In this document: one piece after another, positions 1,107 through 48,179 of the stretch | How the letters are laid out: every line of letters begins with the position of its first letter | Numbering within the stretch: position 1 is the stretch's first letter | Assembly: GCA_012845835.1 (NCBI GenBank) | Contig: JABAKD010000006.1 | Coordinates: forward strand, 1,348,116-1,412,115 | Direction of reading: 5' to 3' | From: Undaria pinnatifida | Taxonomy: Eukaryota; Sar; Phaeophyceae; Laminariales; Alariaceae | Length of the DNA: 64,000 nt | Translations under genes and position numbers: made by a program | Notes under the pieces: model-generated | Databases searched by the model: none | The model's input: the letters and a program-made list of their open reading frames with translations, nothing else | What the model was told of the DNA's origin: nothing

Positions 1107-1206
1107 ATTTACGACCGAAGATGCTGCTGAAGGTTTGACCACGTCCGCGTCTTCGAACTCGTTCCCGTCAAACAGGCAGTGGTAGCACACCGCCGCCGAG
1201 CAGAAG
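1107..1206 (-). CDS. Exon 12: second half of membrane helix and start of cytoplasmic tail
   Basis: The acceptor is CGTTTTGTGTTGCAG|CTTCTG and the donor GTAAAT|GTAAGT. It enters in phase 2, leaves in phase 0, and codes for residues 816-848. FCSAAVCYHCLF completes the helix begun in exon 11, and the Cys cluster would suit palmitoylation. The tail DGNEFEDADVVKPS is acidic. If the donor were unused the frame would run into a TTAA MITE and stop near 933, so a further exon before position 1 is more likely. Confidence 0.7.
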
Positions 1207-4200
1207 CTGCAACACAAAACGGGGGGTGAAACAAACGCGTTACGATATACAGCGGTAAGCAACACCAACAAAAACATCAACAAGACCAACACCAACGACA
1301 GAAGCGACCAACATACCAATATCTAATTCGTCGAACTCACGGCTGACGTCCTCGAAAATATTTTTTATAGAATATCTACAACAGCAGCAACATGAACTAC
1401 ACAGGTAGAAAACAACAGAGACAAAAAACATCAGCAACCGACAACAACAGCGCATTGAAACACCGCAAACAACATCAACGTCAAAATACCGCGACAAAAA
1501 TATCACCAACCACATCCATACATTACACCCGACAAAACAACGACAACAGCGCCATCACCAACTGAGATAACATCGACCCTCCACCCCCTCAGGACAAGAA
1601 ACTACGCCCACATAAACCACATCTACTACATCGTCAAAAACACACGCACAATCGACCACTCCCCCCACCCCCGCACTTAACATTCCCTCGCCAAACGGCG
1701 CAGGTGACCACGAGCGCCGAAAGCAGCATCCCTCCATACCGGAGAAAACTCTGCCAGGGCCCGCTAGTTCTAACTTCCTCCGCGACGGACCAAAAACACT
1801 ATCAACAACACCAACATCAACCAACACCAACACCACCAACACCAACATCAAACCAACACCACCATCGTGTTTCACCAGACAGCGCAGGTACCGATGAGCG
1901 CCTAAAACAGTACCCCTCCATACTAAAGAAAACTCTGGCAGGTTGCGCTAGTGCTAAGCTTGTCCCAGCCCGATGAACAACACCAACACCACCACCAATA
2001 TCAACACTAACAACACCACCACCACCAATATCAACACTAACAACACCACCACCACCAAAATTAACACCAACACCACCACCACCACCACCAAATCAACTCC
2101 AACACCAGCATTACCACCAACACCACCACTGTTAATAACATGGTACTTTCTCACCAGACAGCGCAGGTGCCGACGAGCGCCAAAAACAGCATCCCTCCAT
2201 ATTTCAGAAAATTCTCCCAAGGTCCGCTGGTGCCAAGCTCGTCCGACACGGATAGGCCCGACGAAGACAGAGTCGTGGCGTTGCCGCACGAGGTGTTGCC
2301 ACCGAGACAGAAAGCCAGGTTGGACATGCTGCCGTACACGCGAAAAAAAAACACAACGCACTTATTTTGTGTGAAAGATACACGCGAAGAAAGCGTTATT
2401 ATCGAACACACTTCGTTTACGACAAAAGAAAGAAAAAAATGTTTTCACGTTTTGGTTGCGAAAATATGTGAAGTAGGGTGTTGCTTCCGAAAGAAGCGCT
2501 TATTTGTTCTCCCGAAAACGGCCTCAATTTCGGGGAAAACGCAATCGTCCGAAAACAAAAAACACACACCCAGAGCGTACAGAAAAGGGAGGGGACGGGG
2601 AACAGCAATACGGCAGTCAACTGTACGAGCTAAGTTTTGGCTACGAGTGTGGGGGAAACCCCTGCTTCGTGGCATATTGCAGCACGATGTGCTGTCGCCG
2701 ACGGCACACAACGCCAGGTTGTACACGTTGCCATAAACTAAAAAAAGTACCCGAACACGACATTTTGTTCAACGACAAACACGATGAAAGTTGATTTATC
2801 GGGCATTGTTGTTTACGAAAATAACAAAGTTTTTTTTCTTTTCTTTTCCGAAAACGTTTTTATTTTTCAAAAAACAAATTCAAACGACGTTTTACATTTT
2901 TCGTTGTTTTGAAAAAAAAAAAAAAAAAGTTCATCCCGCAAGAAAAAAAAAAAAAAATCGTGCAGAAGACGAAGACGGAGGCGGTGGAAGTTGAAGGCAC
3001 TCCAGCCAACAATGATACACGCCACGAAGAAGCAGATGAAGGAAACCGAAGAAACTCTATTAATAGGGGATTAAAATTGCCGCACACATAGGCAACACTA
3101 GGTTGGACAAGCCAGGATAGCTTCCCCGAAAACGCCGATTTCTAGTGAAAAAATTTTGCCGACAACATAACAACTAACACGCCGTGCTGAAAAGAGGGGG
3201 GAGGGGGGGGGGGGGGCATATTGAGTGGAGTCAAGTTTACAAGTTACCTGGAACGTTGTAGGGGGTGCAAACGGGAACAAAGAGGAAAGCCGAAAACTGA
3301 CTCAACTACAAACGACGATTACAGCCCTCTCGTGAGAAAAACACCGCCCGATCCGGACAAAAAATAAAAAACATGTATCATAGTAATGGCACCTCGCACC
3401 TGATCTCCGAAGGTAACACCCCTAACGCGTCCGCGAGTTCCTTCCTCCCCCCTTCCGCATAGTCCTCGACTACAAGCGCCACCCGAGAGGAGGTCGAGTC
3501 CGATGCGTCCCCTTCTTCCGTTGTTAAGACCACCTGGAAGTCCATGTCTACGGTGCTTGCAGTGTTACCGCTTTCGTCTGATTGTAACCCCCTCGAGCTG
3601 CGGAGGTACCCAAATCTGTCGTGGTCATCACCACCATCAATGCTGCTGCTATCGCTATCCCGACTGTCGCCACCAACACCACGAGCGCTATCGCTGCTGC
3701 TGGCGCCACCGCTAGCCTTCCGCTCAACCTCCTCCTCCCAGCCCTCTACCAACTCATCTCCTTCTCCCTTCCCTTCCTCCCGCCCCAAGGCTTCATCCAA
3801 CTCCCACCCCGCCTCCCAGCCCTCATGTAACGCCTCCTCCTTCCAGACGTACTTCCTCGCTTCCCGAGATTGTTCGGAAGGCAGTCGGTTGGCCTCATCA
3901 TCACCATCACCATCATCACCAGCTTCCAGAGAAGACATTTCCCTCCAGACGCTGGGCAATCGACGCCGCGCAGCCCCCCCGCCCCCACCCCCGCCCCCGA
4001 TACCACTACCGCCTCCACATGAGGTATCTCCATCGTTCAAGTCATAACTACCCTCGTTAATATGCGCTGTCTCAAGCGCGTTCATTTCAAGCACCGCGGA
4101 GGCAGCTACCGCGACATTTTGTACCGAATCTAGGCCGAATATCGTGGCAAGCCCTTCTCGAGCGGCGTTGAAAACCTCTTCTTCCTCCGCGTCTGGGTCA

Positions 4201-7200
4201 ACACCGGACACCTGAACGACGCGCAGAGGATATAGTCGAGAGGGATAAAAACGAGCAAGAACAACTTTACAAAAAAACTCTGGAGTGCTAAAATAAGGTT
4301 ACAAGAAAAATACGAACAACGACCCCTCCCTCCTCCTCCCCTACCTCCCCCCCCCCTCTATCCCACCCCTTCCGGCCACCCTTACCCCCCCGCTTGAAGA
4401 GTACCGGCGACACTACCATTTTCGCCTCCATCATGAATATCGGCGCCGCATGCGGAAAAAAAAAAGACGGACAACGAAAATAAACAAGTACCCCCCCCCT
4501 CGCCCACATGCATGATACAATGATTGCACGCCTCCATTTCCTCCTCCAGCCACCTCTACCCTACCTGAAGGCTACCGGTGGGCCGCCTTTACCGCTCTTC
4601 TGGACTATTACACAGGATAACGCATGGAAATAGGGGAGGTTGGTTTGGTCCATGTGTGCTTCCAGAGTCATCGCCAGAAAAAAAAAAAAAAACTACCCAA
4701 AACACTACGTTAGCCCTGACCTTCACCCCTACCCATAAAACTCAAGTCCTGCGAAAAACGTTTTCACTTTTTTAATTGTTTATCAAACCTCGTTTATCAA
4801 GTCATTCCCCGATTTCCATTATTTATCCTACATCATAATCCAGACATTTCGTGAAGGCTACTGGCACCGGTTACACTTCCCTCCCATTCCGCGGATCTCA
4901 TGAAGGTCGGCGACGCGGTCGGCCTGCGTAGTATTAAGACTACAACACAAAAAACAATTATTAATATCAACACTTCGTGTATAATATATAAGCGATATTG
5001 ACAAGAAAAACATTACCCACAAACACACGAACAATGAAAAAAAGGCTCAGGTCTATAGACTATATATGTTTTTTTTCTTCTTCAAACACATCTCCTTTCT
5101 AGCTTCGGGACAAGCTGTGGTCATAAGCGTCGTCCTTTCTCCCCCCCGGCTCTTGCCGCCAATTTTTATCGCGCATAGGGTTCAGCAATCCCACTGCTCG
5201 TCGATCTTTCATCGAGTGTTGCTAACTCACGCTCTCACGTTTTCCGCGAGTCAATTTGTGCACAAGAAAAAGTCCCCACGAAACTACACGAGTATGCACT
5301 CGGGGGGTTCGAACTCACGAAACTAACCTATACCAGGCTCGAGGATAACCTGATACGCCACCGGGGCGACCGGCCGTAATATATTGTAAAAATAAAAATA
5401 CACTCCAGCTGTGAGATCAAAGATTTTGTCGAAACTCATCTTTTCAAGCTGTGTGTGATAATCCGATCGCGCGTATTACGGGCTGTGTGTCCTCATCAAG
5501 GATATAGGTCGGCGACTCCCCTTGGAACTACAGTGTAGCTATCAGGGTCAACAGGGCGATGTTAGGCAGTCTGTGCGCGGAAACTAAAACCTGTTTTCGA
5601 GGGGGCCCAAATCTGACAGCTGTGGAAGGAGATGCATCAGTTTATCAAGTGTATCCTGTAAGTCGTATAACCGGTGAGGGGAGGGCGGAGTTTTTAAGGG
5701 CGTGGGAGCATGGGTTTGAACAAGACGAAGCGGGGGGGGGGGGGGGGGGGGGGGGGGCGGGGCAACTCAATCTGTGCGTGGAAACTATGAATTCTTTAAG
5801 GGGATAAATCTGGCGGTTTTGGAAGGAATGCACCAGTTTATCATGTATATCCTGTAAGTCGTACAACCAGTGAGGAGGGGGTGGAGTGTTCGAGGGGGCG
5901 GGTGGGGGGGGGGGGGGGGGCAAAAGGGTTTTCAACAGATTTCGGTCGCATACAAGCAGGGGTTTGCTAGACGCGTGGTGCTATGTCTAGGCGATGGTGC
6001 GGGTGGTGGGGAAGGAGGGAGCGTTGAGGTGGGGTGTGTGTGTGGGGCGGGGGGGGGTGAATTGGAGCAGCGGCATGGGTGGCTCTAAAAAGATAATGAG
6101 GTGATTTCGATGTTAGGTGGGGCGTTTGAGCAAGAGGGAGCGGGAAAAAAAGAAGAAGAAAAAAAGGGGGCGTTGGGGGGGGGGGGGGCTGAATTAAAGC
6201 TCATCATGGATATATATGGCCATATGACTACGGCCATGCATGAAACGAGTACCTCCCCCCCCCCCCCCAACCGCCTCCACCCCACCTGAAGAGTACCGGT
6301 GACACTACCACCCCTATCCGTCGACGTGATGAAGGTCGGCGCCGATGTTGGGGAAGAAGTCGGCGCAGAAGAAGGGGAGGAGGTGGGGGTGCTCGAGCCA
6401 TCCTGAAATGCGCAGACGGAGTTTGTAAATAAAAAGGGGGAGAGGGAGGGGGGGGGGGAGAGGTGGCGTGGACTATGAAATTAGAACGGAGGATAGGGGC
6501 GGGTAGAGAATGACGTCGGGGCGTTAGAAGGGGATAATGTCGGGGTGCTCGAGTCGTCCTGAAACATCTAGACAACAAAAAAAAAGGTGTGAGAGAGGTT
6601 GAGTGTGGGGGCGGGGGGAGGGGGGTAAACGACGGTAGTTGACACGGCGTTTACGATGGGAGGTGCCGGGGGTAGGGTAAGAAATATCGCATGCTGGTGG
6701 GATGTAGGGTGTCGCAGATAATACAGCGCTGTGAGCCGAGGTGTTTTATAGTGTGAAAAGGGGAGAGGAGGGGAGGGGGGTACTCATTTCATTCATAGCC
6801 GTACTCGAATGACCATAGACCCTCGCATGCCTACAACGTCGGGACGGAGAACAGTCGGGTTTTCACCGATCAGAGAGACATCGCGTGCACCAAACACGAA
6901 GCGCCGTGGGGTGTTCGGCGAGTCGCAGGAAGGAGAGGGCGGGGGGGGAGTAACGCTTCGATACCGTCGACGGCGCAACTCGCGCCAGGCCAGGCCAAGC
7001 AAACTCACCTCAGGCCCCCCAACAGGAGAACTAGGGGGCACCCCCAACACCACCGGTGACGCAGTCGCAGGGCCAGCAGACCCAGGCCAATTGGACGAAG
7101 GCGCAAAAGTTGACAGCGCCGTTGGGGCGGGTGTGGGCACTTGTTCAATGGTGCATTCTAAGCGGGGTTCAGCCAGGTTGTACTGGGAGCCCAGGTAGGT

Positions 7201-10200
7201 TATGACCAAGGTAGCCCGGTTGGTGGCGAAGGCGTCTATCGTCAGCCCGCACCCCTGAAAAAAAAACGCCACCACACAATAAATGGGGGGAAGGGGAAGG
7301 GTGAGGACAAGGATTATTTTTAGTATGTAGTATACACAGCGCAGCATACAGTATCCAGCATATGCTACGCAGGTACAGGATACAGGAATCAAAACAGATG
7401 TTGTGTTGTTCTCACATTAACTCACATAATCAAGTCCGTGGTCACAGGACAGGCTCCAGTCACTCTGGAGTGGAATGATACCCCAGGGACAAAAGAAAAC
7501 AAAAAGTGGTACACGCATATATCGTAGCTGAAGCAACTAACGCATTCGCCGAAAAACATAAACAACAGCAGTATCTGGTAGCCGTATGTATACAGACTAA
7601 ACCTATACACCCGTGTTAGCTATGAATAGTCGGTGTTGCTCGCTCGTCTACCAGGGCGGTGGCTAATTATTTTCGCCTTAGTTTTTTCAAGAGTTCTGTC
7701 TCCCATTAGTTTTCAAGGGCGTTTCGCACGTCGTACCCGGCCAAAGCTCATGGGAACACCTGTGTCCCCTCTTGTTCACCTTGGGATACCCCCGGGAAAA
7801 AAGCCAAACACGTCCCGAAGGGGAACTTGTACAGTGGACGCGTGCTACCATAGAGGCGCGCCACTTTTTTCCTGAGGTTCCTCAACTTGGGGAGCTCAAG
7901 AACTCTCCCAAAAACTGGTTTGGAGAAAAACAAATTGCTATCTAAGATACCGGATGAAAAATTCCATGGCCTAGGGTGAACGACGAGAATCATGCAACAA
8001 AAAAGGCCTATTATTTATTTTTTTTCCGACGATTTTGGGTCAAGGAGCTCCGTCATATAGAAACACTTTCAGACGAAAAGTGCTACCTCTATCGTAGCAG
8101 GCGTCAGCGGGCACCCCAATTTAACGCCTTCCACCACTGGAAACCCGTTTTTAATTACAATTTTACTTGAAGCTAGTATAGGGAGGGATTTTGGGGGCTC
8201 TAAAGGGGTTAAGGGCGCGCCCCGTGACAGGCCCAAACAAGCGCTCTTAACTACACATTGCTCTTATCTGTAGTGGGAAATATATAGCGTTTAGTATAGG
8301 TGGGGCGTACGCCGATTTGACCCGCTCTTAAGTCCCGAACGCTCTTATCCTGGGCGCTCTTAAATCGGGGTACCCACTGTAGTATACAGCATCGTACCTT
8401 TCCCGACAAGGCCGTTTCTCTTGCAGTACGGCATAGAGCATCGTGCTGTATATTCACCAAGTGCGTATCTACAAGCTCCCCCTTGGTACCACGGGTGACG
8501 CCAGGCCGATGACTTCGCACCCCCGTGCGTTCTCCCGCATCCTTACGGAGTGGTGTGTGCTTCACATTACACTGGTATTCCCAGCCATCTAGAAAACATC
8601 CCGCACAACCGGTGTACGTGCCGAAGCCTGCTAGAGAGACTAGCTCTGTGGTCTACGACACAGAGATACACCTTGCAAAATAAGGCAAGGCGATTGGGCC
8701 AAACAATGCTAACCACAATGGACACGCGGGCAAAAAAAAGATTATGCACGCCAGCACCAGACTAATTGCAACAAAAAGCAACAAAAAAAAGGCAGTAGTA
8801 GCGCATGAAGCAATACTGCGATGTAATTTCACATTCACGGGTGATGAAGGTAAGGACCAAGAGAATATGATAACGTCTACATGGCAAATATATCTACCGC
8901 GGCTGCGACTTTCAGTGCTTGATAGCCGGCGTCAGCATCCGGGTGCAACGAAACACAACAAAAACTGCTGATATGCTCGGCACCATTTGATGCGTTGGTA
9001 CAGCAGTCCACTGGCATCTCTCACCATTCGCTGCAGCCAGTACAACCTACCCGCAATACAAGAAAAAAATGCCACGAACATTAGAAGAAAAAAGAAAACA
9101 ACGCTCACAGCAGTGGTCTACAGCATCCCATACCGACACACAGCCAGGTGCTGTACGCAACCTTACATACGTATCGTGCGTGCAAGAAGCAAAAAGGAAA
9201 ACGCAGCACAGCAGTCGTAACGGACACAATACAACCCAATATCTGCTAGGAAAATGAACTTTGACCCCTTGACCGACGGCAATTTTCAAACAATTGACCT
9301 TGACTGACGTCATCTTTACTAGGTTTTAGTGTGGAAGATGTCGGTGAACGGCACTTTCAGCCCTTGACCGTCGGAATTTTTCCAATATTTTACCTTGACT
9401 GACACCAAACTACTAGGTTTAAGTGTGGAAGACGTCGGTAAACGGCACTTTCAGCCCTTGACCGACAAGTTTCCAATATGTTACCTTGACTGACGCCAAA
9501 CTACTAGATTTTAGTGAGAAACGATCGATTTGACTGACGCCCTTGACGGCTGGACGTTTTCCCTTGACTGATAGTCTCCTGGCATCTTTGACAACCACCC
9601 AAGGCAGACACAGGTGGACCAATCACACAGAGCCCCGGGCGTCTTTGGTCCTCGGAGGAACTCCACCCGGGCGAGAGCCGCTGGCGTCGTGTAGGCCAGG
9701 CTTTGCCGGAGGCCACCACAAGTCCACCAAGTCAGTACAACAAAAGCATCTAGCAACTAACTCATGCGCACTCCTGACGTCACCGGCGTGACGCTTTTTT
9801 GTGCACCAGCAGTAGAAAAATCAAGTCTTAATAGCCCCCCAAAAAACGAAAGGCCCCTCCGCAGTTGAACGGTGACATCTGTACGAGCCAATAGGCGAAA
9901 TGCCATTATCCCGTAGGGGCTTGATTATATCTTGATTATAGTACAGGGAAACATGACGAATAAAACGGATAATTGCAGCACATCCCTGACACGAAGCCCC
10001 CCGGGCTGCTAGTTTTGGTGGCGACGATTTTCCAGTCGATCTTCACCGCAAGTGCCCGTACGACACGCGCACAGCTTGCGCTGCCGTGTGCTGCATGCTC
10101 GCATCACGACAAAGAACGCGTCAATACTTCGTTTTATCGCTGTACATGGGCCTCGAAAGGGTTAAACCACCACCGAAATATAAAACCGCAACTAATTCTG

Positions 10201-13200
10201 AAAAACAACGGCATATACCCGGAAGGCTAATTTATCGTAATTCAACGCCAAGGATGACCATTCATTGCCTGCGCAAAATCGTTCTACCTACCGGTAATCG
10301 GCGACATTCCAGACTCGTGTTACCTTACGCAGTAACCGTAAAAACAGGGGGAAATGCGAACCATCCCCGGGGGGGATGACTACGGCAACCCCCCTCCCCC
10401 CCCCCCCTCCCCGGGGTAACTTGTGAAAAATTCAGCGATATATACCAAGTACAGGCGTTACAAGACAGAAGTTAGCGGGCACTAAAAAAGTTACACGAGA
10501 CTTTCGGGTTATCTACCGTGAACACGTGTTACACCGACGTCATGGGTTATAGGTAACTGCCATCCCTGCCCAACGGTAGCAACGGGGGTCTTGTACCAGG
10601 TACCTGGTGCTATTCCTTACCATGTACCAGGTATACTATGCAGTATCCGTACCCTCAAGCCAACGGTGAGGAAAGAGCGGTCGCCCCAAAACTACGAAAT
10701 AACACATACATATCCTTCCCCAAATGTCGTGCCTCTTTAAACAACGGTACTATTCTCCACCTCTCAACTTACCCATACACAACGATACGATGCAACGATA
10801 CGATGGCTGTGCGTAATATTATGTACCTGGTATATTTACCCTCGAGTTGCCGGGGAGGAAAGACCTGTCGCCCTCGAACGCGATGGTTAACCAACGGCGC
10901 TGTTCACGACGGCGATTTTACACTTAGCCAACGGAGGTAATATCATGTGTACCAGGTATCAATATCAATGATATCAATGTATCCTTACCTGACAACGGTG
11001 GGTAGTGTTACTTGTTACCATTTATAAGGTTTTTCACGGGTCATGGCCCGACCCGACCCGACCCGCGAGTTTCCATAACGCCCCTTAAAACTGGAAACCC
11101 GTTCTTGGGGACAAAGGAGGTAATATCATGTGTACCAGGTATCAAGATCAATGTATCCTTACCTAACAACGGTGGGTAGTGTTACTTGTTACCATTCATA
11201 AGGTTTTTCACGGGTCATGGCCCGACCCGACTCGACCCGCGAGTTTCCATAACGCCCCTTAAAAACTGGAAACCCGTTCTTGGGGGCAAAACTACTTGGA
11301 AATAGTATGGGGAAAGCTTTTGGAGGTCCTAAAGGGGTTAACTCGACCCGCGAGTTTCCATAACGCCTATAAAACTGGAAACCCGTTTTTCGGGAAAAAA
11401 ATACTTGGAAGTAGTATAGGGAACGGTTTTGGGGGCCCTAAAGGGGTTGCTCGTCCCGTGAGTTTCCATAACGCCCCTTTACAACTGGAAACTCGTCTTC
11501 GGGAAAAAAACTACTTGGAAATAGTAAAAGGATTGGTTTTGGGGCCCTGAAGGGGTTACTCGACCCGCGAGTTTCCATAACGCCTTTACAACTGGAAACT
11601 CGTTTTGGGGACAAAACTACTTGGAAATAGTATAGGGATTGGTTTTGGGGGCCCTGAAGGGCACCGCAGTCCCAACATGGCGACGAAACACTTGCGAGTT
11701 AGACTAGGAAAACGTCTTAGAAGTTGGAAATGGGTTAATAAATAGTATCGCAGGGATAACGTTTGTATCTTCACATGTGCTACGATAGAAGCAGTAAGGT
11801 ATCCCGTTTTTTGGCACTTTTCGGCAGTTTTTGGCACTTTTTGGCACTTTCTTAAACTCACCGTAGTTTAACGCCTTTACAAGTAGAAACTCGTTTTCGG
11901 GGGCCGGTTTTGGGGATAAACTACTTGGAAATAGTATAGGACTTTTTTTGGGGGGGGGGTCCAAAAGGGGTTAACTCTTGCCAAGTACTGTGCGTGTTTC
12001 GTGTCCATGTCGGGAGTGCGGTGAGCACTACAAGGATTAAAGAAACTCGCGAATTGAGTCGGATCGGGTCAGGAGGTGTCCAAAATTTGACGGGTCGGTT
12101 CGGGTTGGATCAGGAGCCTTTCAAATATAACGGGTCGGGTCGGATCACCCTGACCCGATCCAACCCGCGAGAAGTGATTCCACTGGTGAAAACCCCTGCA
12201 ATCTATCCGTGCCCAAATGTGCTTCTTTTGAACGATAATGTGTGCGATGGTAATAACCAGGTATATTATTGCAACTAGGTATATGCATCATTTCCCACAC
12301 GTGTACTGCATCGTACACAGCATACACCAGTACATCCTTGACTGAAGACAATTCATAGCTAAACAACGGTACTACTACCCAACGATCAACTTAACCTTAT
12401 CCAACGGCATACTATTATCCCTAATATTATCACCATCATGATCATGATCAAAATTGTCAATGATCACGAGATATCATTGCTATTACTATTACTATTTCTA
12501 TTACTATTACTATTACTCTTGTTGTTGTTGTTGTTGCTGTTGCTGTTGCTGTTGCTGTTGTTGTTGTTGTTGTCATTATTACTACTACTATTATCACTAT
12601 TATTACTATTGCTACTATTGTTAATGGTTCCTTACCTTCAAGTTGACGGTGAGGGAAGAGCTGTCGCCTTCAAAAGCGACGGCCATGTCGAAGCCGCTGC
12701 TGCCCGAGTCAAAACCGTCGATCGCCGACAATTCTGATTGGTCCACTTTTTCCGAAGAAATATCCACGGAACCGTCCGTTGGCGACACTAACGTCGCCGT
12801 TAACTCCAAGTTGTCCAAATCCTTGTTCTGACAAACACAAAGCATGTTTGTATGGGGGGGGGGGGGGGGGGGGGGTCATTTGTTGCGTACCTTAGTCGTT
12901 CGACCATTGACCACGCATCCCTTTCGAGACGGAGCACCGCTCCTACTACTAACAGAGACACCTCCAACCACTCGGCGCTCATTACGCTTCTTCCATATAT
13001 ATACTACATAGAAAGCCGGGGGGGGTCCACTTACAGCTATAGTTTCAGCCGCCCCGATAGCTTTGAAGAAACAAAAAAACTCAGCTATGAAGCGAGGGTT
13101 TCGTCGAAACGCCTTTTCGCAAAAGCTCCACGTGACATTTCGATCGCGTGTGGCAAGGGGTTTGTGATCTCATGAACTACAGCAGTTGCAGCAGTTGCGG

Positions 13201-18756: not shown

Positions 18757-18852
<96 letters not shown>

Positions 18853-18931
18853 TAATAATAATGATAATAATAATGATAATAATAATGATAATAATAATAA
18901 TAATAAAAATAATAATAATAATAAAAATAAA

Positions 18932-19027
<96 letters not shown>

Positions 19028-27378: not shown

Positions 27379-27437
<59 letters not shown>

Positions 27438-42400: not shown

Positions 42401-45185
42401 CGCCACCTCCACCACCACCAACTACAACAACAGCCTTACCACAACACCAAACTGTAGACATAACGTATGTGGTAACAAGGGTGATTAGCATCACGCGTAG
42501 CCAGCAGGTAAAGGACAGGATCTCTCGATACCAACTCGGAGTGTCATCGCGCCAAGAAACGGCTCGCAGGATATGATACACATCAGGCACTACCATGTAC
42601 CGGTAAAACAGATGATGCAGTATTCTATGAAGAGTGAATCGCCAACATCACCGGCACTGCCACCTGCTTGCCTCATACGGTAACAAGGGGGTGGCCCATC
42701 ATGCCATACAGAGTACACCACTAATAAAAAAACAGGGAAGTAAGAAAGGCAAGCTCTTTAATGGATGCCAGGTATAAGAAACCCAGGGGCCATTATACTG
42801 AAGTTAATGTATAACGCACCCTCTCCAAAATAAGAAACCCAGCCAAGTCAGCATTTCTGTTACATTCGTACAGAATACTTGTAGGTGTGCTGTACGGCTG
42901 TTTGGCAGGTCAACTGCAAACGAACGGCGCTGGCTGCAAGCGGCAGAGGTCATCAGGTCAGCCCAGACAAGGGAAGATCCCGCGATTGCAAGGGTATGAT
43001 ACGTTATGCATCATCACACCAGGTGGTATTCGTTCATGCATTCTTCATACCCCACCGAGGTGATGTCCGTATGATGCACCGCGACCAGTGAGCAGTACCT
43101 CCCACCGTACCTAAGACCAATAGGTACGCAAATATAAGCACCGTTTTAATGATTAGTAGTATACACACGGTGCTTATATTTATGTAAATAATCACAACTA
43201 CTGGTACAAAGTGCAGCGGTATCCTATAAATGTACATGCCAAAAAATATGTATCTGATCTACCAGGTACGAAAAGCGACAGAAAACATTTTAGGGGCCAT
43301 GCTTTCGTCTGTCTAACAAGAGCAAGCGGCAGTCCGACTACGCCCGCGCTGCGGGCGTGTACTGCAGCTCCATACATTGCAGTTCGGGCACTCCGTACGC
43401 CAGCATCCCGGGCAGCTACGTGTTTGCTGATGCCGCAATCGTCGTGTCGTCTCGTCATGTTGCCCCTCTAAATGCTACCAGGTGCCAGATATATAGACAG
43501 CAGAGCAAATAGACAGCAGAGAAAACTAGGCAACACAACACAAGGTACTGATGAAGCAATCTGCAATCATCAGCAGCATCAGCAGCAGTGGCGTTGCACA
43601 ATCGATCGGAGGCAGTCCCAAATCTCAATTATTCAGTTGCCAATTGCATGTCCGCTGTACATCTTGCATGATGGCGAGCTTGCGTCCGACCAGTTGTTCT
43701 TTCGTCGCGTTTCGGTCGTACTGCTGTTAAAGTTCGTGTGTTTTTCGCGACAAACATTGGAGACAAAAAAGTATGTCCGAGGGGGGTGCGTTGACCTAAA
43801 ACAGCAGTAGAAAAGCTGTCTTGCACCCTTATAAAACCAGTACGATCGATTTTTTCGTGACGCAAATGATTTCTTGACGATGAAAGACGATATTTTGCTC
43901 GTACGAACGTCCGAGCACCTACAAAGAGTGGGCTGCAGACGAGCATTACTCGGCTGGGATGACAACTACGGGGTAATTACAGCGCAGCAGCAGTCAGCAA
44001 CGACGTTGCTCGGGGATAAATATCATAGATGTCACGCGGGGGAGAGAGAAAGGAGGAGGAGGAGTTGGAGGATTAGGAAGAGTGGGTGCGGGCGGAAGGT
44101 ACTTGAGGTTTTGCAAACCAGGGTCTGGGAGGAATGCAACATCAAAAATAGGCCATGGTTTCGTTTGTAATGGGAGTGGTATACCCGCACAGCAGCACCA
44201 TACATGGCATTGGCCTCGCGTAGAGATAGATAGACGCGCCCACAAGGAGCGACAGAGGAGAAGGAAGAGGAGGGCGAGGAGGTGAGTTGAAACTTTTGCA
44301 AGACTCTCAGTCTACCAAAAGGGGGAATGCACCAACACCTAAAAGAGGCGATCATTCTGTTTTTACCCCAAGAGCGCGGGGGGGGGGGGGGGACGAAAAA
44401 AACACCAGAGGAACGGTTTCCGTTGAAAAATTTCAATGAAAAATTCTGTCTCGTGGTTCATGGTCAAGGCTGCTTGCTGCTGATTCTGGGAAGGGGGTGG
44501 AAGGGGGGATCGGCGACCTTGTGAGCATAGCCTACCGTCCCGAGCTTTACAGCCCAAGCGCTTGACATTTCAAACCGAGGGCAGCTGAGCAGCAAGATGA
44601 AATGGTCTCCCGGAATTTTGAACTGCTTTTTGGCGGTCCAGATTATTCTGTTCGTACACTATGAACGAGTCACCTACCTACCTAGGAGAAAATAACTGAC
44701 AAGAGGCAAAACACCTGGAATTAGAACAGGGCATTTTTGTAAGGTTAACTCTGTTAGCAACGTACTCCCGACATGGGTATAAAACACTTGGAATTAGAAA
44801 GTCCAGGAGCTGGAAACGGGATACAAGCAAGTTTTTTCATTTTGTGGTGAACGACCCAAAGGGCCCGGGGGCTATTATAGCCTGAGAGGTCGATAACAGC
44901 TAGCCTGGCCGCAACGCAGGCGCCGACAGAGACGACATCTAGTGGGATTGGAACGAGATCAAACCCTAGTTGGTGTGTATTCGTACACTCTAGCTCACCT
45001 TGAGGGCAGCTTTGGTCAGCCGCTGGCACTCCATCGAAAGTATGGGAAACGTCGACCGAGACCTCATGCGAGCCTCCTCCAAGCTCATCAAGCGTGGTCT
45101 CGTACGAGCACTCCGTTGCCTCCATCGCCGCCGCTGCCACCCCCCCCAGCACTGCGAGGAAAACCGTGCGCCAGCTCCACCACAT
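1107..45185 (-). CDS. Twelve-exon gene for a probable type I membrane protein with a large ectodomain (gene-level entry; 3' end outside window)
   Basis: Twelve exons on the minus strand (45185-44999, 24181-24020, 22411-22311, 20442-20341, 16609-16347, 14614-14527, 12827-12636, 7254-7009, 6402-6286, 4211-3400, 2328-2155, 1206-1107) each carry an AG acceptor and GT donor. Intron phases run 1,1,0,0,2,0,0,0,0,2,2,0 and agree at every junction, giving 2544 nt or 848 codons without a stop. The product has a signal peptide (about 1-20), a first domain (about 60-160), a second related domain (about 270-390), a Pro/Ser/Thr linker (about 400-470), an acidic Gly/Ser-rich part (487-756), one membrane helix (about 801-827) and an acidic tail. 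An adhesion or cell-wall contact role is inferred from this layout; no enzyme motif is seen. Extra exons inside the 20.8-kb first intron cannot be excluded. The gene continues past 1107. Confidence 0.72.
1685..1965 (-). pseudogene. Two decayed copies of the exon 11 3' end
   Basis: Plus-strand blocks at 1860-1965 and 1685-1790 repeat the last 100 or so bases of exon 11 and its donor (2154-2260): both share CAGACAGCGCAGGT-like text and the CATCCCTCCATA box. Donor-equivalent points are 2154, 1875 and 1691, so spacings are 279 and 184 bp. The copies carry stops in the exon 11 frame and lack acceptors, so they are probably silent. CAC/AAC triplet repeats lie between them. Confidence 0.65.
2155..2328 (-). 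CDS. Exon 11: juxtamembrane region and first half of the membrane helix
   Basis: The acceptor is CGCGTGTACGGCAG|CATGTCC and the donor GCTGTCTG|GTGAGAAAG. It enters and leaves in phase 2 and codes for residues 758-814. Four cysteines and an NAT glycosylation sequon precede LKYGGMLFLALVGTCAV, the start of a membrane helix that exon 12 finishes. The split codons become Ser (AG+C) and Cys (TG+C). Two decayed copies of its 3' half follow in the next intron. Confidence 0.75.
3400..4211 (-). CDS. Exon 10: large acidic Gly/Ser-rich region
   Basis: The acceptor is TGCGCGTCGTTCAG|GTGTCC and the donor GAGATCAG|GTGCGAG. The 812-nt exon enters in phase 0, leaves in phase 2, and codes for residues 487-756. 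The start (VFNAAREGLATIFGLDSVQN) and the end (MDFQVVLTTEE, then RKELADALGVLPSEI) look like two halves of a compact alpha/beta module. Between them lies an insert of poly-Gly, Glu- and Ser-rich sequence. The module resembles SEA-like repeats of algal surface proteins in rhythm only. Confidence 0.77.
4370..4930 (-). pseudogene. Three decayed copies of the exon 9 3' end
   Basis: Blocks at 4855-4930, 4560-4615 and 4370-4445 repeat the exon 9 ending (minus-strand GGTGGTAGTGTCACCGGTAC and ...CTTCAG). Matching points are 4852, 4566 and 4395, spaced 286 and 171 bp. The two largest keep the upstream GCGCCGACCTTCAT-like text. None has both an acceptor and a donor of quality, so I read them as fossil exon pieces inside intron 9. 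Confidence 0.6.
5069..5372 (-). mobile_element. SINE1 (tRNA-derived) copy
   Basis: On the minus strand it starts CCGGTCGCCCCGGTGGCGTA (A-box region), has a GTTCGAA B-box-like site, then body text CACTCGATGAAAGATCGACG and an A-rich tail. No coding capacity is expected. Confidence 0.8.
5385..5925 (+). repeat. Dispersed family F, copy 1
   Basis: It begins CTCCAGCTGTGAGATCAAAG and continues through AGGTCGGCGACTCCCCTTGG and GACAGCTGTGGAAGGAGATG to G-runs, with an inner repeat of about 140 bp (TGTGCGTGGAAACTATGAAT). The beginning alone also occurs near 17340, 20000, 33750, 38500 and 38610. Confidence 0.75.
6286..6402 (-). CDS. Exon 9: Ser/Thr/Pro stalk
   Basis: The acceptor is CTGCGCATTTCAG|GATGGC and the donor ACTCTTCAG|GTGGGG, phase 0 at both ends. 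It codes for 39 residues (448-486): a repeat of the SSAPTSSPTSAPT kind, then FITSTDRGGSVTGTLQ leading into exon 10. The donor is weaker than the others. Decayed copies lie upstream (about 6425-6575) and downstream (4855-4930, 4560-4615, 4370-4445). Confidence 0.7.
6425..6575 (-). pseudogene. Decayed upstream copy of exon 9
   Basis: On the minus strand TGTTTCAG is followed by GACGACTCGAGCACCCCGAC and then Pro/Ser/Thr codons, mirroring the exon 9 start (TTTCAG|GATGGCTCGAGCACCCC). The frame closes within about 25 codons and no donor is visible. It sits in intron 8, 5' of the real exon. Confidence 0.55.
6775..6950 (+). repeat. Dispersed family C copy
   Basis: After a G-run come GTACTCATTTCATTCATAGC, GACCATAGACCCTCGCATGC and GAAGCGCCGTGGGGTGTTCG. 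Other copies lie at 21155, 25885, 26155 and 61555. Confidence 0.75.
7009..7254 (-). CDS. Exon 8: end of ectodomain 2 and Pro/Thr/Ser linker
   Basis: The acceptor is GGCGTTTTTTTTTCAG|GGGTGC and the donor CCTGAG|GTGAGTTT, phase 0 at both ends. It codes for residues 366-447. The first part, GCGLTIDAFATNRATLV, reads as the closing strands of domain 2. From about 400 it becomes a linker of Pro, Thr, Ser and Gly (VPTPAPTALSTFAPSS), typical of O-glycosylated stalks. Confidence 0.75.
7405..7560 (-). repeat. Dispersed family E copy
   Basis: It contains the hairpin-forming CTCCAGTCACTCTGGAG and GTCCGTGGTCACAGGACAGG; the same block is at 26860, 29045, 29840 (partial) and 39948. Confidence 0.7.
8121..8212 (+). 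mobile_element. TTAA MITE, near-complete copy
   Basis: It is bounded by TTAA on both sides, with CGCCTTCCACCACTGG at one end, AGTATAGGGAGGGATTTTGG inside and CTCTAAAGGGG at the other. It lies in intron 7. Confidence 0.85.
8226..8387 (-). repeat. Dispersed family G copy
   Basis: Inverted relative of 17085-17245, sharing CGCTCTTAAATCGGGGTACC and GTGACAGGC with a GCGCTCTTA repeat. Confidence 0.65.
8545..8790 (+). repeat. Dispersed family J copy
   Basis: CCAGCCATCTAGAAAACATC, CTGCTAGAGAGACTAGCTCT and GACACAGAGATACACCTTGC match 30160 and 35795. Confidence 0.7.
9246..9535 (+). repeat. Tandem repeat, about 95 bp, three units
   Basis: Each unit holds CCCTTGACCG, TACCTTGACTGACRCCAAAC and CTAGGTTTTAGTGTGGAAGA. 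Related CTTGACGG text occurs near 21650, 22225 and 37575. Intron 7. Confidence 0.8.
10560..11175 (-). pseudogene. Cluster of degenerate exon 7 tails
   Basis: Blocks near 10650-10690 and 10840-10885 repeat the exon 7 end plus donor (plus strand TACCYTCRAG, then CGGTGAGGAAAGA and the box meaning VAFEGD). Shorter versions of TTACCT...CAACGGT lie near 10985 and 11160. They are 145-190 bp apart and mixed with ACCAGGTA motifs and MITE pieces. None is a full exon. Confidence 0.5.
10934..11292 (+). repeat. Direct duplication (about 180 bp, twice) carrying a MITE end and GACCCG repeats
   Basis: 10934-11115 and 11116-11292 share GGAGGTAATATCATGTGTAC, CACGGGTCATGGCCCGACCC and CCATAACGCCCCTTAAAA. The TTTTTCACGGGTCATG text matches the ends of the hAT-like element at 51185, so a hAT end and a MITE end were duplicated together. 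Confidence 0.75.
11250..11661 (+). repeat. Tandem array of four TTAA MITE units
   Basis: Units near 11250, 11361, 11469 and 11578 each run from ACGCCYYTTA and AACTGGAAAC to CCTRAAGGGGTT. They are joined by ACTCGACCCGCGAGTTTCCA, period about 110 bp. A transposon turned into a short satellite is the simplest reading. Confidence 0.85.
11868..11974 (+). mobile_element. TTAA MITE, single copy beside the array
   Basis: It has TTAA at both ends, starts CGCCTTTACAAGTAGAAAC and ends TCCAAAAGGGG; a G-run lengthens the 3' part. Confidence 0.8.
12470..12612 (+). repeat. (TTA/TTG/CTG)n microsatellite
   Basis: An imperfect trinucleotide tract ending 25 bp before the exon 7 donor on the other strand. It yields a poly-Leu open frame that is not a gene. 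Confidence 0.9.
12636..12827 (-). CDS. Exon 7: core of ectodomain 2
   Basis: The acceptor is GTGTTTGTCAG|AACAAGG and the donor AACTTGAAG|GTAAGG, phase 0 at both ends. It codes for 64 residues (302-365), rich in Asp/Ser, with SGFDMAVAFEGDSSSLTVN; FDM sits at 347-349. The acidic loops would suit calcium binding, an inference only. Several degenerate copies of the 3' end with its donor lie between 10560 and 11170 in the following intron. Confidence 0.76.
13270..14202 (-). pseudogene. Two degenerate exon 6 tails and a 123-bp tandem pair in intron 6
   Basis: The string GTCGAAAAACGCCGC of exon 6 recurs at about 14157 and, less well, at about 13277, each with flanking exon and intron bases (AAGCTGCGTTTA precedes the 14128-14202 copy). 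Between them 13800-13922 and 13923-14045 form a tandem pair sharing GCGGCTCCTCGAC and AGCTCATATACAGCC. Both tails have lost the donor. Confidence 0.55.
14527..14614 (-). CDS. Exon 6: first strand block of ectodomain 2
   Basis: The acceptor is TTCCTGTTTTTTTAG|CACGG and the donor TTGGAG|GTGCGTCC. It enters in phase 2, leaves in phase 0, and codes for residues 273-301, including TITVSLEAWEGSSVKAAFFD. The split codon becomes Ser (AG+C). VKAAFFDLE aligns with IRALFLDIS of exon 2. The pattern recalls the 'DIRGxFFD' domain of secreted marine bacterial and stramenopile proteins; that comparison is from memory. Confidence 0.7.
14690..14820 (+). repeat. (GGGAT)n pentanucleotide tract
   Basis: ATGGGATGGGATGGG units with GGGAC variants, beside exon 6. 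The transcript strand is CCCAT-rich and pyrimidine-rich. Confidence 0.9.
14935..15075 (+). repeat. Dispersed family I copy
   Basis: CTTGAAAAAGCTAAAGCAAA and ACAATTAGCCGC with AGTAACCCGGCAAGTAAC match 19455-19640, 20230-20310 and, inverted, 7625-7760. Confidence 0.6.
15215..15620 (+). repeat. Dispersed family H copy, rich in GATCTATATGAT
   Basis: Repeated TTGATGATCTATATGAT units surround the core TAGCACATGTTTCGTGCG and CAGATCCTGCGCCACATA. The ATCTGTATGATCTGC text of this family also fills the exon 5 tail array next door. Confidence 0.7.
15970..16280 (-). pseudogene. Three tandem copies of the exon 5 end with donor
   Basis: Blocks starting near 15975, 16100 and 16216 repeat the last 50 or so bases of exon 5 (plus strand CACCTTGTCGAAAACACC, then GCGCAGATCTCCC-like text). 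The period is about 120 bp, and each is followed by ATCTGTATGATCTGC intron text. Two of the three keep a recognisable donor context. The array abuts the real exon, so exon border and intron were amplified as one unit. Confidence 0.65.
16347..16609 (-). CDS. Exon 5: Ser/Gly-rich linker leading into ectodomain 2
   Basis: The acceptor follows a long pyrimidine tract (GGGGAAAACAG|GTGTTGG) and the donor is CGACAAG|GTGAGTTT. The exon enters in phase 0, leaves in phase 2, and codes for residues 185-271. The first two thirds are low-complexity Ser/Gly. The end reads DCKELANVLKLDGRSALVS, then WEDEPLLYST. CKELANVL resembles RKELADAL at the end of exon 10, so that module may occur twice. The exon's last 50 or so bases and donor recur three times downstream in the next intron. 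Confidence 0.68.
17085..17245 (+). repeat. Dispersed family G copy
   Basis: GTGGGTACCCCGATTTAAGA, GCGCCGGCTTTCGGCTTGTC and GTGCGCTCTTG match the complement of 8226-8387. Confidence 0.65.
17423..18201. mobile_element. 779-bp non-autonomous element with 50-bp inverted ends (Harbinger-like)
   Basis: The left end GGCTATTTCTTACACAGTCG pairs with the right end, whose complement reads GGCCATTTCTTACACGGTCG; similarity extends about 50 bp. TAA flanks both ends (17420-17422, 18202-18204), fitting the 3-bp TWA target of PIF/Harbinger. A second inverted pair sits near 17490-17610. No transposase is recognised. Confidence 0.75.
18540..18715 (+). repeat. Dispersed family M copy
   Basis: CTAAAATGAACCGATGTCGG, GGTGTAGGGAAAGGAAATGG and AGAAGGTCCTATAGATACCA match 50205-50345. 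Confidence 0.7.
18750..19032 (+). repeat. Long (AAT)n microsatellite
   Basis: About 280 bp of TAA/AAT units with GAT and AAA interruptions. Poly-Asn and poly-Ile frames across it are artefacts. Confidence 0.95.
19165..19460 (+). repeat. Dispersed family H copy
   Basis: The core CTAGCACATGTTTCCTGGGT with GGATATGGACTCTGC is followed by many ATCTATAT-type units ending GATCTAGATCGTAATCTG. Confidence 0.7.
19455..19640 (+). repeat. Dispersed family I copy with a 50-bp inner duplication
   Basis: CAAAAATCAAAGCAAAAACA, then TAGCCACTYGGCACCG, occurs twice in tandem before AGTAACCGGGCAAGTAG. Confidence 0.65.
19725..19985 (-). mobile_element. SINE2 copy, tRNA-like head not recognised
   Basis: It shares AACTCAGATACGGGGT, GCGAGAAGACTCGAGCC and CTCTCAGCAGTTGGTTCC with the copy at 33310. 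Intron 4. Confidence 0.65.
20341..20442 (-). CDS. Exon 4: end of ectodomain 1
   Basis: The acceptor is CCTAAAGTTCCAG|AGGATTAG and the donor GGAGAG|GTGAGCG, phase 0 at both ends. It codes for 34 residues (151-184) with ISVVTSCVGEDSES and two cysteines, matching in position the beta-strand-like end of domain 2 (exon 7/8 junction). It is short but supported by clean splice sites, correct phase and position. Confidence 0.68.
21155..21460 (+). repeat. Dispersed family C copy, long form
   Basis: G-run, GTGTACTCGATATTCATGCA, CGGGACGGAGCATATCGGGT, then a 3' part (TTCCGCACCTTGTGCGTACT, TGTTTTCTGGTGCGGCCAC) that the 61555 copy also has. A shorter relative lies at 20815-20970. Confidence 0.78.
21976..22064 (+). 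mobile_element. TTAA MITE, worn copy in intron 3
   Basis: GCGTTTACAACTGGAAACCC, GAAATTAGTATAG and GGGGCTTTAAAGGG mark the family; both TTAA borders have decayed. Confidence 0.7.
22311..22411 (-). CDS. Exon 3: second half of ectodomain 1
   Basis: The acceptor is GCTGTTGCAG|AATACAACG and the donor CAGGAG|GTAAGTCAG, close to consensus. The exon enters in phase 1, leaves in phase 0, and codes for residues 118-150 with ENGAFDMGMAIGDD. The FDM triplet (135-137) lies about 53 residues after the FLD of exon 2. Domain 2 has FFD and FDM about 50 residues apart, so the two exon pairs look like copies of one fold. Confidence 0.75.
22570..23995 (+). repeat. C-rich CCACC low-complexity tract in intron 2
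   Basis: Some 1.4 kb of CACC, CCACCA and C-runs on the plus strand, hence G-rich in the transcript of the large gene. Poly-Pro/Thr frames of up to 300 codons cross it and are not credible. The exon 2 duplicate sits inside it. Confidence 0.88.
23737..23830 (-). pseudogene. Duplicate of the exon 2 3' half with donor
   Basis: On the minus strand this repeats exon 2 from GTCGACGCTAGATGACCATG to CTGTTG|GTGAGTGGC, with reading frame and donor intact over about 28 codons (STLDDHDPTLVDAHRETT). It lies 282 bp downstream of the real donor. No acceptor is visible because C-rich low-complexity DNA precedes it. It could act as an alternative 3' end if exon 2's own donor were skipped. Confidence 0.6.
24020..24181 (-). 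CDS. Exon 2: first half of ectodomain 1
   Basis: The acceptor is GCTTATCAAACAG|GGTATGG and the donor AGTGTTG|GTGAGTGG. The exon enters and leaves in phase 1 and codes for residues 64-116, including AVVLDLRTASGNIRALFLD. The segment IRALFLDIS (78-86) matches VKAAFFDLE in exon 6, the main evidence for two homologous ectodomains. The acceptor lies in a 137-bp tandem repeat, and the exon's 3' half is repeated at 23737-23830. Confidence 0.72.
24182..24597 (-). repeat. 137-bp tandem repeat, three copies, each with the exon 2 acceptor
   Basis: Units begin at CCTGTTTGATAAGCAAAACC (24181, 24319, 24456) and share CAGTGACAGATAT and CACAATCCAGTTCGAT. On the gene's strand each unit ends in the polypyrimidine/CAG acceptor context of exon 2, so intron 1 offers three near-identical 3' splice sites in a row. 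Confidence 0.85.
24597..24745 (+). repeat. Dispersed family D copy
   Basis: TATCCTCCAGCGGGTGGAAA, AAGCTCACCACACTT and CCAGCGCTAGCTGGC match the other three copies. Intron 1. Confidence 0.7.
25225..25555 (-). mobile_element. SINE2-like copy with a different tRNA-like head
   Basis: The body matches SINE2 (AACTCAGATCCGGGGTCGCA). The right end on the minus strand reads CTGGTGGTCGAGTCGTC, then GAGTACGAATCCACC, a tRNA-like A/B pair unlike the other copies. It may be a subfamily or a chimera. Confidence 0.6.
25885..26240 (-). repeat. Dispersed family C, one long and one short inverted copy
   Basis: 25885-26090 and 26155-26240 both hold CCCGGCGTAGTAGGGATGCG, and both are followed by ACACACACCYAYAACCGTAG. 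The block was therefore duplicated locally after insertion. Confidence 0.75.
26335..26450 (+). repeat. Dispersed family H fragment
   Basis: TAGTACGTGTTCCTCCGGTT, GACCTGTACCACGCCGATCC and GATCATATGATCTATTTGAT are a diverged core and tail. Confidence 0.55.
26578..26664 (+). mobile_element. TTAA MITE in intron 1
   Basis: It runs from AACGCCGTTACAACTGC through ACTTAGTATAGGGAGGGG to GGGCTCTAAAG; the borders are worn. Confidence 0.7.
26860..26935 (+). repeat. Dispersed family E copy
   Basis: CACTCCAGAGTAACTGGAGC, then CCTGTCCAGTGACCATGGGC and GTTAATGTGAGGA. Confidence 0.7.
27365..27450 (+). repeat. (AAC)n microsatellite
   Basis: CAACAACAACAACAACAACA with few interruptions. Confidence 0.92.
28130..28445. 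other. Unassigned GC-rich block open on both strands (intron 1)
   Basis: Both strands keep 100-codon frames. The plus frame contains DGMACLEEYLTGIKSEGWRM and KEGTETFIRKRH, which look protein-like. The minus frame follows a CAG acceptor-like site but no donor. I do not recognise either; it may be an old insertion of coding DNA. Confidence 0.25.
28860..29010 (+). repeat. Dispersed family D copy after an oligo-T
   Basis: A 20-T run is followed by ATCCTCCGGCGGATGGGGAA and CACTTCCACGTATTTTCATA. The oligo-T start suggests a minus-oriented retroposon. Confidence 0.72.
29045..29140 (+). repeat. Dispersed family E copy
   Basis: ACTCCAGAGTGACTGGAGCC and TGTCCTGTGACCAGGGACTT match the family; it directly follows a family D copy. 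A partial relative is at 29840-29930. Confidence 0.7.
30160..30390 (+). repeat. Dispersed family J copy
   Basis: GTGTGTGATGTTCACATCAA, CTCCTAGAGAGACTCTGGTC and AGCCAGCACACCAGACTA follow the order of the 8545 copy. A start fragment is at 28725-28800. Confidence 0.7.
30660..31100 (-). mobile_element. SINE2 copy interrupted by a TTAA MITE
   Basis: The tRNA-like head on the minus strand (CTGGTGGTCTAGTGGTTACC) ends near 31100. The body carries TCTGGGGTCACATAGCGGGC and CTCGTGGACTCGCGTCGAG like the copy at 33310, with the tail near 30660. A MITE occupies 30966-31053 inside it. Confidence 0.7.
30966..31053 (+). mobile_element. TTAA MITE inserted in SINE2
   Basis: An 80-bp element flanked by TTAA on both sides (30966-30969, 31050-31053). 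SINE2 sequence continues on both sides, which dates the MITE as the younger insertion. Confidence 0.85.
32045..32275 (+). repeat. Dispersed family H copy
   Basis: GACAGATCAGACCCCTATTG, GGGGAAAGCCGGATGGTCAA, ACAAGTTTCCTGGGTTTGGA and TCTAGATCGTGATGTG give the whole family order. Confidence 0.72.
33310..33700 (+). mobile_element. SINE2 copy, most complete
   Basis: The head CCGGTCGCCCCGGTGGTCTA with TAAGTTCGATTCCCACC is tRNA-like. Body and A-rich tail (TAAATGAATAAATAAATA) follow. The head resembles SINE1 while the body differs, so the two families may share an origin. Confidence 0.72.
33898..34110 (+). repeat. Dispersed family D copy, long form
   Basis: Oligo-T, CATCCTCCGGCGGATGGGGA, CAATCCAGCGCTAGCTGGC, then CGGTCCCTATCGGCGGTCCC and TCCGGCAGCGCAA, which the 47785 copy also carries. 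Confidence 0.75.
34747..35060 (+). mobile_element. SINE1 copy with 7-bp target duplication
   Basis: The tRNA-like head is followed by GTGAGTTCGAGTCCCC (B box) and the family body, ending in a 13-A tail. TGCATAA flanks it on both sides (34740-34746, 35061-35067), the mark of LINE-driven insertion. Confidence 0.88.
35795..36040 (+). repeat. Dispersed family J copy
   Basis: CCTAGCCATCTAGTACAATA, CAGCACAACCAGTGTCCGTG and CACAAACTACGACACAGACA match the family. Confidence 0.68.
36805..37280 (+). repeat. Dispersed family F, copy 2
   Basis: It follows copy 1 throughout, including GGCGACTCCCCTTGGAACTA and the G-rich centre between two related halves. Confidence 0.78.
37657..37958 (-). mobile_element. 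SINE1 copy with 12-bp flanking duplication
   Basis: A full-length minus copy with an oligo-T (A tail) at the left end. TTATTGAATGTC occurs at 37635-37646 and 37959-37970; the left copy is separated from the tail by about 10 bases of extra sequence. Confidence 0.85.
39202..39505 (+). mobile_element. SINE1 copy
   Basis: It starts CCGGTCGCCCCGGTGGCGAA and keeps the body through AGTAGAAGTGTGAAAAATAA; the B box is worn and no target duplication is seen. Confidence 0.78.
39948..40125 (-). repeat. Dispersed family E copy
   Basis: ACTGTTCTCACATGATCTCG and CGTGGTCACAGGACAGGCAT match 7405; the A-rich part and GTACACGCCCAAG follow. Confidence 0.65.
40195..40800 (+). repeat. Satellite-like tandem repeat, about 120 bp, five units
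   Basis: Units share ATGGCAAGATCTCGTC, CTTTCCAAAGCC and GTGTCCTTACTTTTGGAGAA. Open frames of 100-160 codons on both strands come from the repeat and lack protein features. Intron 1. Confidence 0.82.
41735..42240 (-). repeat. Dispersed family F, copy 3 (inverted)
   Basis: Complementary to copies 1 and 2 from the C-rich centre (41765-41900) to AGATGAGTTTCGACAAAATA. Family class unknown. Confidence 0.78.
44999..45185 (-). CDS. Exon 1: signal peptide and start of ectodomain
   Basis: The chosen ATG (45185-45183) has G at -3 and opens MWWSWRTVFLAVLGG followed by VAAAA, a textbook signal peptide with Trp/Arg n-region and Ala-rich cleavage zone. The mature part carries ECSYETTLDELGG and ends PAADQSCPQ. 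The donor is CTCAAG|GTGAGC, leaving phase 1. The frame stays open upstream to an ATG at 45332 and another near 45269. These would put a 20-50 residue basic leader before the hydrophobic segment, so I prefer the inner start. No TATA-like promoter was recognised upstream. Confidence 0.62.
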
Positions 45186-47780: not shown

Positions 47781-47784
47781 CCCA

Positions 47785-48010
47785 TCTTTTTTTTTATTTT
47801 ATTTTTTATCCTCCGACAGATGGGGAAAAATAAAGCTTTAGCTCACCACACTTCCACGTTTTCATACGCGTCGTGTCGATTTAACTCAGTTGCTTTCGCA
47901 GCCCAACGCTAGCTGGTGCACCCTTCGGGTCCCATCGTAGGTATTATAGCGTAAGCTGTCCCTATCAGTGGTCTTCGTTACAATCCCGGCAGCGCAAGCT
48001 GCCGTTGTAT
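47785..48010 (+). repeat. Dispersed family D copy, long form
   Basis: T-rich start, ATCCTCCGACAGATGGGGAA, GCAGCCCAACGCTAGCTGG and TCCCGGCAGCGCAAGC. It lies upstream of the large gene. Confidence 0.75.
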
Positions 48011-48179
48011 ACGGATGCGTGTGTATGTCCACCCGGCCTGTCCCCTGAGGGTCAGTTTCGGTGGAGATAGCCACCCGGAATGTCATATTTCCGGGTAGTG
48101 TGGGACTTGCGCAAGCTCACCCACTAACAAAACCCCTGGCCATGGGAGATGGCCTTCCGCCGGACTTGGTCCAGTTACG

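Follow-up and report, generated by a model that had tools for sequence, protein, structure and literature searches.

A candidate surface-protein gene with long introns

The minus strand of the window (the whole stretch of 64,000 nucleotides of Undaria pinnatifida DNA analysed here) carries twelve linked exons. With a probability of about 60%, they belong to a genuine nuclear gene of at least ~51 kb, probably with at least 16 exons, which encodes a single-pass type I plasma-membrane protein facing the wall or matrix for sensing or adhesion, and whose introns were lengthened by duplications. A 12-exon gene with introns of up to 20.8 kb could thus be read from the raw sequence, the reading being stopped by the window edge. 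The product is an orphan surface-protein candidate in an alga of whose wall sensing little is known.

Exon structure

The exon set was picked by hand from ranked open AG...GT segments of the minus strand to match the totals of an earlier, sequence-only reading, which had given outer coordinates only. The numbers of that reading were rebuilt exactly: 12 exons on the minus strand with a total length of 2,544 nt, or 848 stop-free codons, and 11 compatible phases (Table 1). AG and GT are present at every internal border, and the largest intron, intron 1, has 20,817 bp. By a generic matrix the donors of the 12 exons score 7.7-12.2, and the acceptors score from -1.6 (exon 4) to 4.7 (exon 6). An alternative in-frame ATG for exon 1 is also possible at 45269; with this start, exon 1 ranks second among the initial exons of the window's minus strand. 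The acceptor of exon 4 may be at 20511 instead of 20442. The gene is indeed missed by single-frame scans, its exons being short and its introns long and repeat-rich.

Table 1. Exons and partial exon copies. Positions are those of the window, negative ones lying beyond its first base; a slash marks the splice border; chain, phase-aware chain with the independent codon model; p, leave-one-out test.
Feature	Position	Strand	Comments
exon 1	44999..45185	-	start codon, signal-peptide-like start, ectodomain begins; donor CAAG/gtgagc, 10.8; p 0.012
exon 2	24020..24181	-	ectodomain; acceptor 2.8, donor 8.8; p 0.032; frame missed by chain
exon 3	22311..22411	-	ectodomain; donor 11.7; recovered exactly by chain
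exon 4	20341..20442	-	ectodomain; donor 10.0, acceptor -1.6; chain prefers acceptor 20511
exon 5	16347..16609	-	Gly/Ser-rich ectodomain linker; donor 12.2, acceptor -0.6; recovered exactly by chain
exon 6	14527..14614	-	second ectodomain segment; recovered exactly by chain
exon 7	12636..12827	-	second ectodomain segment; recovered exactly by chain
exon 8	7009..7254	-	ectodomain end and start of Ser/Thr/Pro stalk; donor 11.4; recovered exactly; weakest codon signal, p 0.099
exon 9	6286..6402	-	Ser/Thr/Pro stalk; recovered exactly by chain
exon 10	3400..4211	-	acidic low-complexity stretch flanked by two ordered-looking ends; recovered exactly
exon 11	2155..2328	-	juxtamembrane region and first part of membrane helix; recovered exactly
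exon 12	1107..1206	-	rest of membrane helix and start of tail; recovered exactly; ends in donor aaat/gtaagt, 9.2
exon 13 (new)	230..276	-	phase-compatible; acceptor 7.5, donor 8.7; chosen by chain at all three penalties
further exon	-842..-1025 (or -1090)	-	required phase; outside window
further exon	-3669..-3734	-	required phase; outside window
tail exon	-4862..-6253	-	1.4 kb, 463 residues; reaches stop at -6253; base -4862 is C55:1343253
exon 2 3'-end copy	23734..23807	-	76% over 74 nt; donor kept; best acceptor in open frame -0.8
exon 5 3'-end copy	16109..16164	-	best acceptor -2.8; another exon 5 copy begins at 16035
exon 6 3'-end copy	14158..14200	-	GT donor lost
exon 7 3'-end copy	10840..10886	-	keeps donor; best acceptor -1.0
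exon 7 second 3'-end copy	10685..10653	-	no acceptor
exon 9 5'-end copy	6512..6564	-	79% over 53 nt; upstream of exon 9
exon 9 3'-end copy	4385..4448	-	from comparison of window with exons
exon 9 3'-part copy	4915..4866	-	ends 9 nt short of junction
exon 11 3'-end copy (first)	1876..1965	-	in-frame stops
exon 11 3'-end copy	1692..1789	-	open; no GT donor

The sequence-only reading had argued that agreement at so many borders could hardly arise by chance. The conclusion is borne out by a frame-specific codon signal, whereas the phase argument itself was overstated: phase agreement is weak proof because the exons were picked so that the phases fit, and the codon signal is the stronger evidence. 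The other claim, that these 12 exons make up a complete 44-kb gene, does not hold. Exon 12 ends in a donor, phase-matching exons run on beyond the window, and the 848 codons are an incomplete coding sequence.

The 20 kb downstream of the window were scored in the same way for exons in the required phases. The exons added there are stop-free in one frame and have AG/GT borders up to the stop at -6253. There is a donor at -6237, just ahead of this stop, and more exon-like segments follow to -10907. The chain trained on other genes takes -842 to -1090 as exon 14 and continues with -2277 to -2370. The span from 45185 to -6253 is 51.4 kb, and the 12-exon model is probably the 5' part of a gene of at least ~51 kb with at least 16 exons.

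Coding potential

The first exon ranking was circular, as the codon usage came from the same exons; leave-one-out and other-gene training followed. In the leave-one-out analysis, with the other 11 exons used for training, the claimed frame is the best of six in all 12 exons, and p against stop-free random segments is at most 0.032 in 11 of them, exon 8 being the exception.

An independent codon model was trained on eight exons of other genes (588 codons) situated ~100-168 kb beyond the first base of the window. These training exons were themselves found by a scan seeded with the gene under study; in Pfam, five have some support for the expected families (one above the cut-off), one matches an unrelated family and two have no match. 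Under this model the claimed frame is best in 10 of the 12 exons, a frame of the opposite strand beating it in exons 8 and 9. Exon 2 scores -0.5 bits, though its frame is still the best of the six.

A phase-aware chain with the independent model, started at the exon 1 donor, was run with three penalties (10, 12 and 14). At each penalty it re-finds exons 3 and 5-12 to the base, that is, nine of the 11 internal exons. In place of exon 2 it takes a shorter segment that has the same donor and another frame. The chain also adds, at the three penalties respectively, 12, 7 and 5 non-model segments within the stretch; many of them are G-rich, and one of those added at penalty 10 is a copy of exon 5. 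We count these 5-12 extra segments, the lost frame of exon 2 and the lost acceptor of exon 4 against the main reading.

Exon-like segments scoring at least 17, with low complexity excluded, were found eight times on the minus strand and three times on the other strand between 45000 and 1001. All eight minus-strand segments use donors of model exons, and in six of them both ends are equal. The region 46001-64000 contains one such segment per strand, and 12 first-order Markov sequences contain four in total (0-1 in each).

The weakest junction is the join of exons 1 and 2, although its phases fit. Here two genes could have been merged, with exon 1 and the signal peptide belonging to one transcript and exons 2 onward to another one with an unseen first exon. 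Intron 1 is ~11 times as long as the mean intron of the kelp S. japonica (1,816 bp; PMC11836290), the phase match of these two exons alone is a one-in-three chance, and the independent model gives exon 2 little support. However, the coding signal and the donor of exon 1 are strong, and intron 1 offers no good partner for it: the best candidate is a 43-nt Gly-rich run with a score of 20.2, and the others among the 12 listed score at most 17.1. Nor does any of the ten best minus-strand initial exons listed fall between exons 1 and 2. We thus consider a pair of genes unlikely, and exon 1 is retained in the model.

A tandem array of 136-bp units (24180-24597, minus strand) ends at the acceptor of exon 2. 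As a result, TTATCAAACAG/GG occurs three times, and the last copy alone abuts exon 2.

Predicted protein

Of all 19-residue windows across the 848 residues, only those that start at residue 8 or at residues 797-809 have a hydropathy above 1.5. The former corresponds to a signal-peptide-like hydrophobic start and the latter, the second and last hydrophobic stretch, to a membrane helix that is split by intron 11 between exons 11 and 12; both features had been pointed out in the sequence-only reading. Judged by hydropathy, the product has a putative signal peptide and one helix, as expected of a single-pass type I protein, while the charges around the helix give no clear indication of its topology. 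Ser, Thr and Pro make up 57% of residues 405-486, and Asp and Glu 27% of residues 570-740. The tail exon encodes 18% Ser, 16% Gly, 16% Ala and 0.4% Lys. The membrane helix is Cys-rich, and the low-complexity tail carries the sequence NPMF.

The product resembles a type I membrane protein; it has a Ser/Thr/Pro stalk, and its tail is long and of low complexity. Its ectodomain would face the cell wall or matrix, with the stalk holding it off the membrane, and the low-complexity tail with NPMF may recruit cytoplasmic partners. The earlier assignment to surface proteins fits this topology but has no domain family behind it. Because no family matches, the sensor or adhesion role is proposed from the topology alone.

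Two segments of the ectodomain seem alike by eye (GNIRALFLDI and SSVKAAFFDL; FDMGMAIG and FDMAVAFE). This likeness is not significant, as 197 of 2,000 shuffles reach the score. The segments also suggested a domain of bacterial surface proteins; this assignment was rejected, since it found no confirmation and the two segments have no significant likeness.

Homology searches

No relatives were found, at the sensitivities applied, in any of the collections searched. With the 848-residue product, Pfam at E <= 10 returned PUB_1 only (11.8 bits against a cut-off of 31.2); it was taken as a chance match, as was its score of 16 bits in a second Pfam scan with the same cut-off. NCBIfam gave no family at cut-off, and among PDB sequences there was no relative, the best E-values being 0.85 and 0.94. 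A tblastn search of phages and plasmids with residues 21-407 gave no match. Two parts of the product had four pattern matches each in viral contigs, none of which was confirmed, and the alignment of the two ectodomain segments had 495 pattern matches in bacterial and archaeal contigs, again with none confirmed. In the U. pinnatifida genome itself (511,146,479 bases), a first look in which few candidates were scored, and which may have missed distant paralogues, revealed no paralogue; all of its matches fall in this gene or in copies of its exons (three matches for the exon 9-10 region, five and four for the ectodomain segments, eight for the C-terminal part). The window has no Rfam match at the gathering score. 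Our verdict is that this is likely a real orphan gene.

Partial copies of exons in introns

Comparison of the window with its own exons revealed 11 partial copies of six exons (2, 5, 6, 7, 9 and 11) in the introns. Ten of them are copies of a 3' part and lie downstream of the exon, nine reaching the donor junction; the remaining one is a copy of a 5' part and lies upstream (Table 1). At a fixed score, 3' ends of six of the 12 exons are copied within 3 kb, all downstream, and the sole 5'-end match is the same exon 6 copy. For comparison, a local copy accompanies 72 of 487 non-exonic tiles, lying upstream in 49 and downstream in 43; the excess for exons need not mean a higher rate of duplication, because copies of exons stay recognisable longer than copies of introns.

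None of the seven copies checked combines a GT donor with an acceptor of at least 0 in an open frame, a lenient comparison given that the acceptors of exons 4 and 5 themselves are below zero and the copies of exons 2 and 7 are not clearly worse. Five of the seven clearly have no usable site at one end (either the GT donor is missing or the acceptor scores -2.8 at best).

A similar pattern was observed elsewhere. The comparison set consisted of 21 exon-like segments, this gene and low complexity being excluded; one of these segments, which lies antisense to exon 8, is probably spurious. Four of the 21 show copies: two 3'-end copies, both downstream, and two 5'-end copies, both upstream. The 5'-end copies belong to a gene with copper-transporting P-type ATPase-like exons (L016-L018, on the minus strand at approximately -146543 to -167889; four of the seven exons searched have Pfam support, for the most part weak), in which two exons have copies of their 5' ends just upstream. 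At L022-L023 (approximately -103051 to -99962, plus strand) there are two exon-like segments, one with a weak match to TruD (pseudouridine synthase), and both have 3'-end copies downstream.

These positions follow from the geometry of duplication, because the partial copy left by a tandem duplication has to lie downstream if a donor was crossed and upstream if an acceptor was. A selection-based reason for the positions was also considered, and dropped since the geometry explains them.

Another reading takes the copies for alternative exons, used in a mutually exclusive way to vary the ectodomain, as is thought for the LRR exons of brown-algal ROCO genes. Eleven copies derive from parts of six exons, and shuffled, alternatively spliced exons of ROCO genes are described in the available part of PMC11378527; moreover, a donor is retained in the exon 2 copy and in the exon 7 copy at 10840..10886, whose acceptors are no worse than that of exon 4. 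However, all 11 copies are partial, most of those checked clearly lack one of the two sites, the first exon 11 copy contains stops, and the pattern recurs in four of the 21 segments elsewhere. A set of alternative exons is thus very improbable, and most copies seem to have arisen by tandem duplication across a splice junction and to have decayed since.

Differences between exons and copies, summed over the 11 copies of six exons, number 41/217, 35/218 and 65/217 at codon positions 1, 2 and 3, an excess at the third position that is possibly inflated, as some copies were first noticed by protein comparison. Such an excess is expected if the protein of the exon is kept while the copy drifts, and may point indirectly to purifying selection acting on the exons.

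The surroundings of the gene are rich in repeats. Repeats of ~165 bp, some in one orientation and some in the other, are dispersed next to exon 8 and through introns (6771-6933, 7399-7560, 21153-21318, 25918-26081, 26163-26219, 28989-29152). A TAA-type array of 278 bp occupies 18748-19025, similar 41-bp GC-rich tandem units are found at 51216-51424 and 52601-52783, and a 292-bp unit is repeated 4.2 times at 54501-55717. A broken Ty3/gypsy-like retrotransposon lies on the minus strand at 58482-60963, its separate frames giving an RNase H-like match (RT_RNaseH, 8e-27) and weak matches to reverse transcriptase and integrase zinc-binding models.

Such surroundings, the broken element upstream, the partial copies, some of them with stops, and the lack of relatives in our searches would also suit a decaying pseudogene or a transposon-derived reading frame. 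Against this, all 12 exons and the added ones are stop-free in frame with AG/GT borders up to the stop at -6253, every exon has a codon signal, and third-position differences from the copies are in excess. The limited first look at the own genome, too, matched only this gene and its exon copies. An origin of this kind is hardly credible.

In this gene, the introns would owe part of their length to local tandem duplications; where these ran across a splice junction, they would have left partial exon copies, most of which would decay as they have no usable splice site at one end. These scraps could be used to estimate when the introns grew, since selection holds one member of each pair. A broader proposal, which we put forward only tentatively, is that the protein is a lineage-specific receptor with an ectodomain unlike described families, and that its introns record a general process in this genome, in which frequent junction-crossing duplications lengthen introns and leave partial copies as a fossil record of the exons. 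If true, the strewn partial copies would be a source from which new exons could arise.

Comparison with known systems

Fungal Wsc-type wall sensors consist of a signal peptide, a Ser/Thr/Pro-rich stalk, one membrane helix and a cytoplasmic tail. The predicted product shares all of these, including, by hydropathy and composition, the single membrane helix after the Ser/Thr/Pro stalk, and it may face the wall or matrix and serve in sensing or adhesion like a Wsc-type sensor, without being one. The resemblance is one of working only: no WSC domain was matched in the product (Pfam, E <= 10), its tail is far longer, and it belongs to another kingdom. A second likeness is to mucin-like single-pass proteins with a juxtamembrane SEA domain, as here, too, the Ser/Thr/Pro stalk is followed by a segment before the helix that looks alpha/beta by eye; at the level of sequence, Pfam listed no SEA match there at E <= 10.

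The literature on exon duplication in brown algae includes the shuffling of ROCO exons (PMC11378527, available part). As in the LRR-ROCO genes described there, we deal with a candidate brown-algal receptor and local exon duplication. However, the LRR-ROCO exons are complete 72-bp phase-2 LRR units, whereas the copies observed here are partial. Moreover, no LRR or ROC domain was found in the 848-residue product by Pfam or, at E <= 1, in the 20 kb beyond the window when translated in its three minus-strand frames.

Apart from its length and the exon scraps in its introns, the structure of the gene is ordinary. Genes of the 2025 assembly of S. japonica are likewise intron-rich, with averages of 6.99 exons and 12,489 bp per gene in the available text of PMC11836290; the gene described here is ~4 times as long and has the 20.8-kb intron. 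Finally, published cases from other eukaryotes, as far as the accessible parts of the reports go, concern the gain of introns by tandem duplication, whereas here existing introns would have been lengthened.
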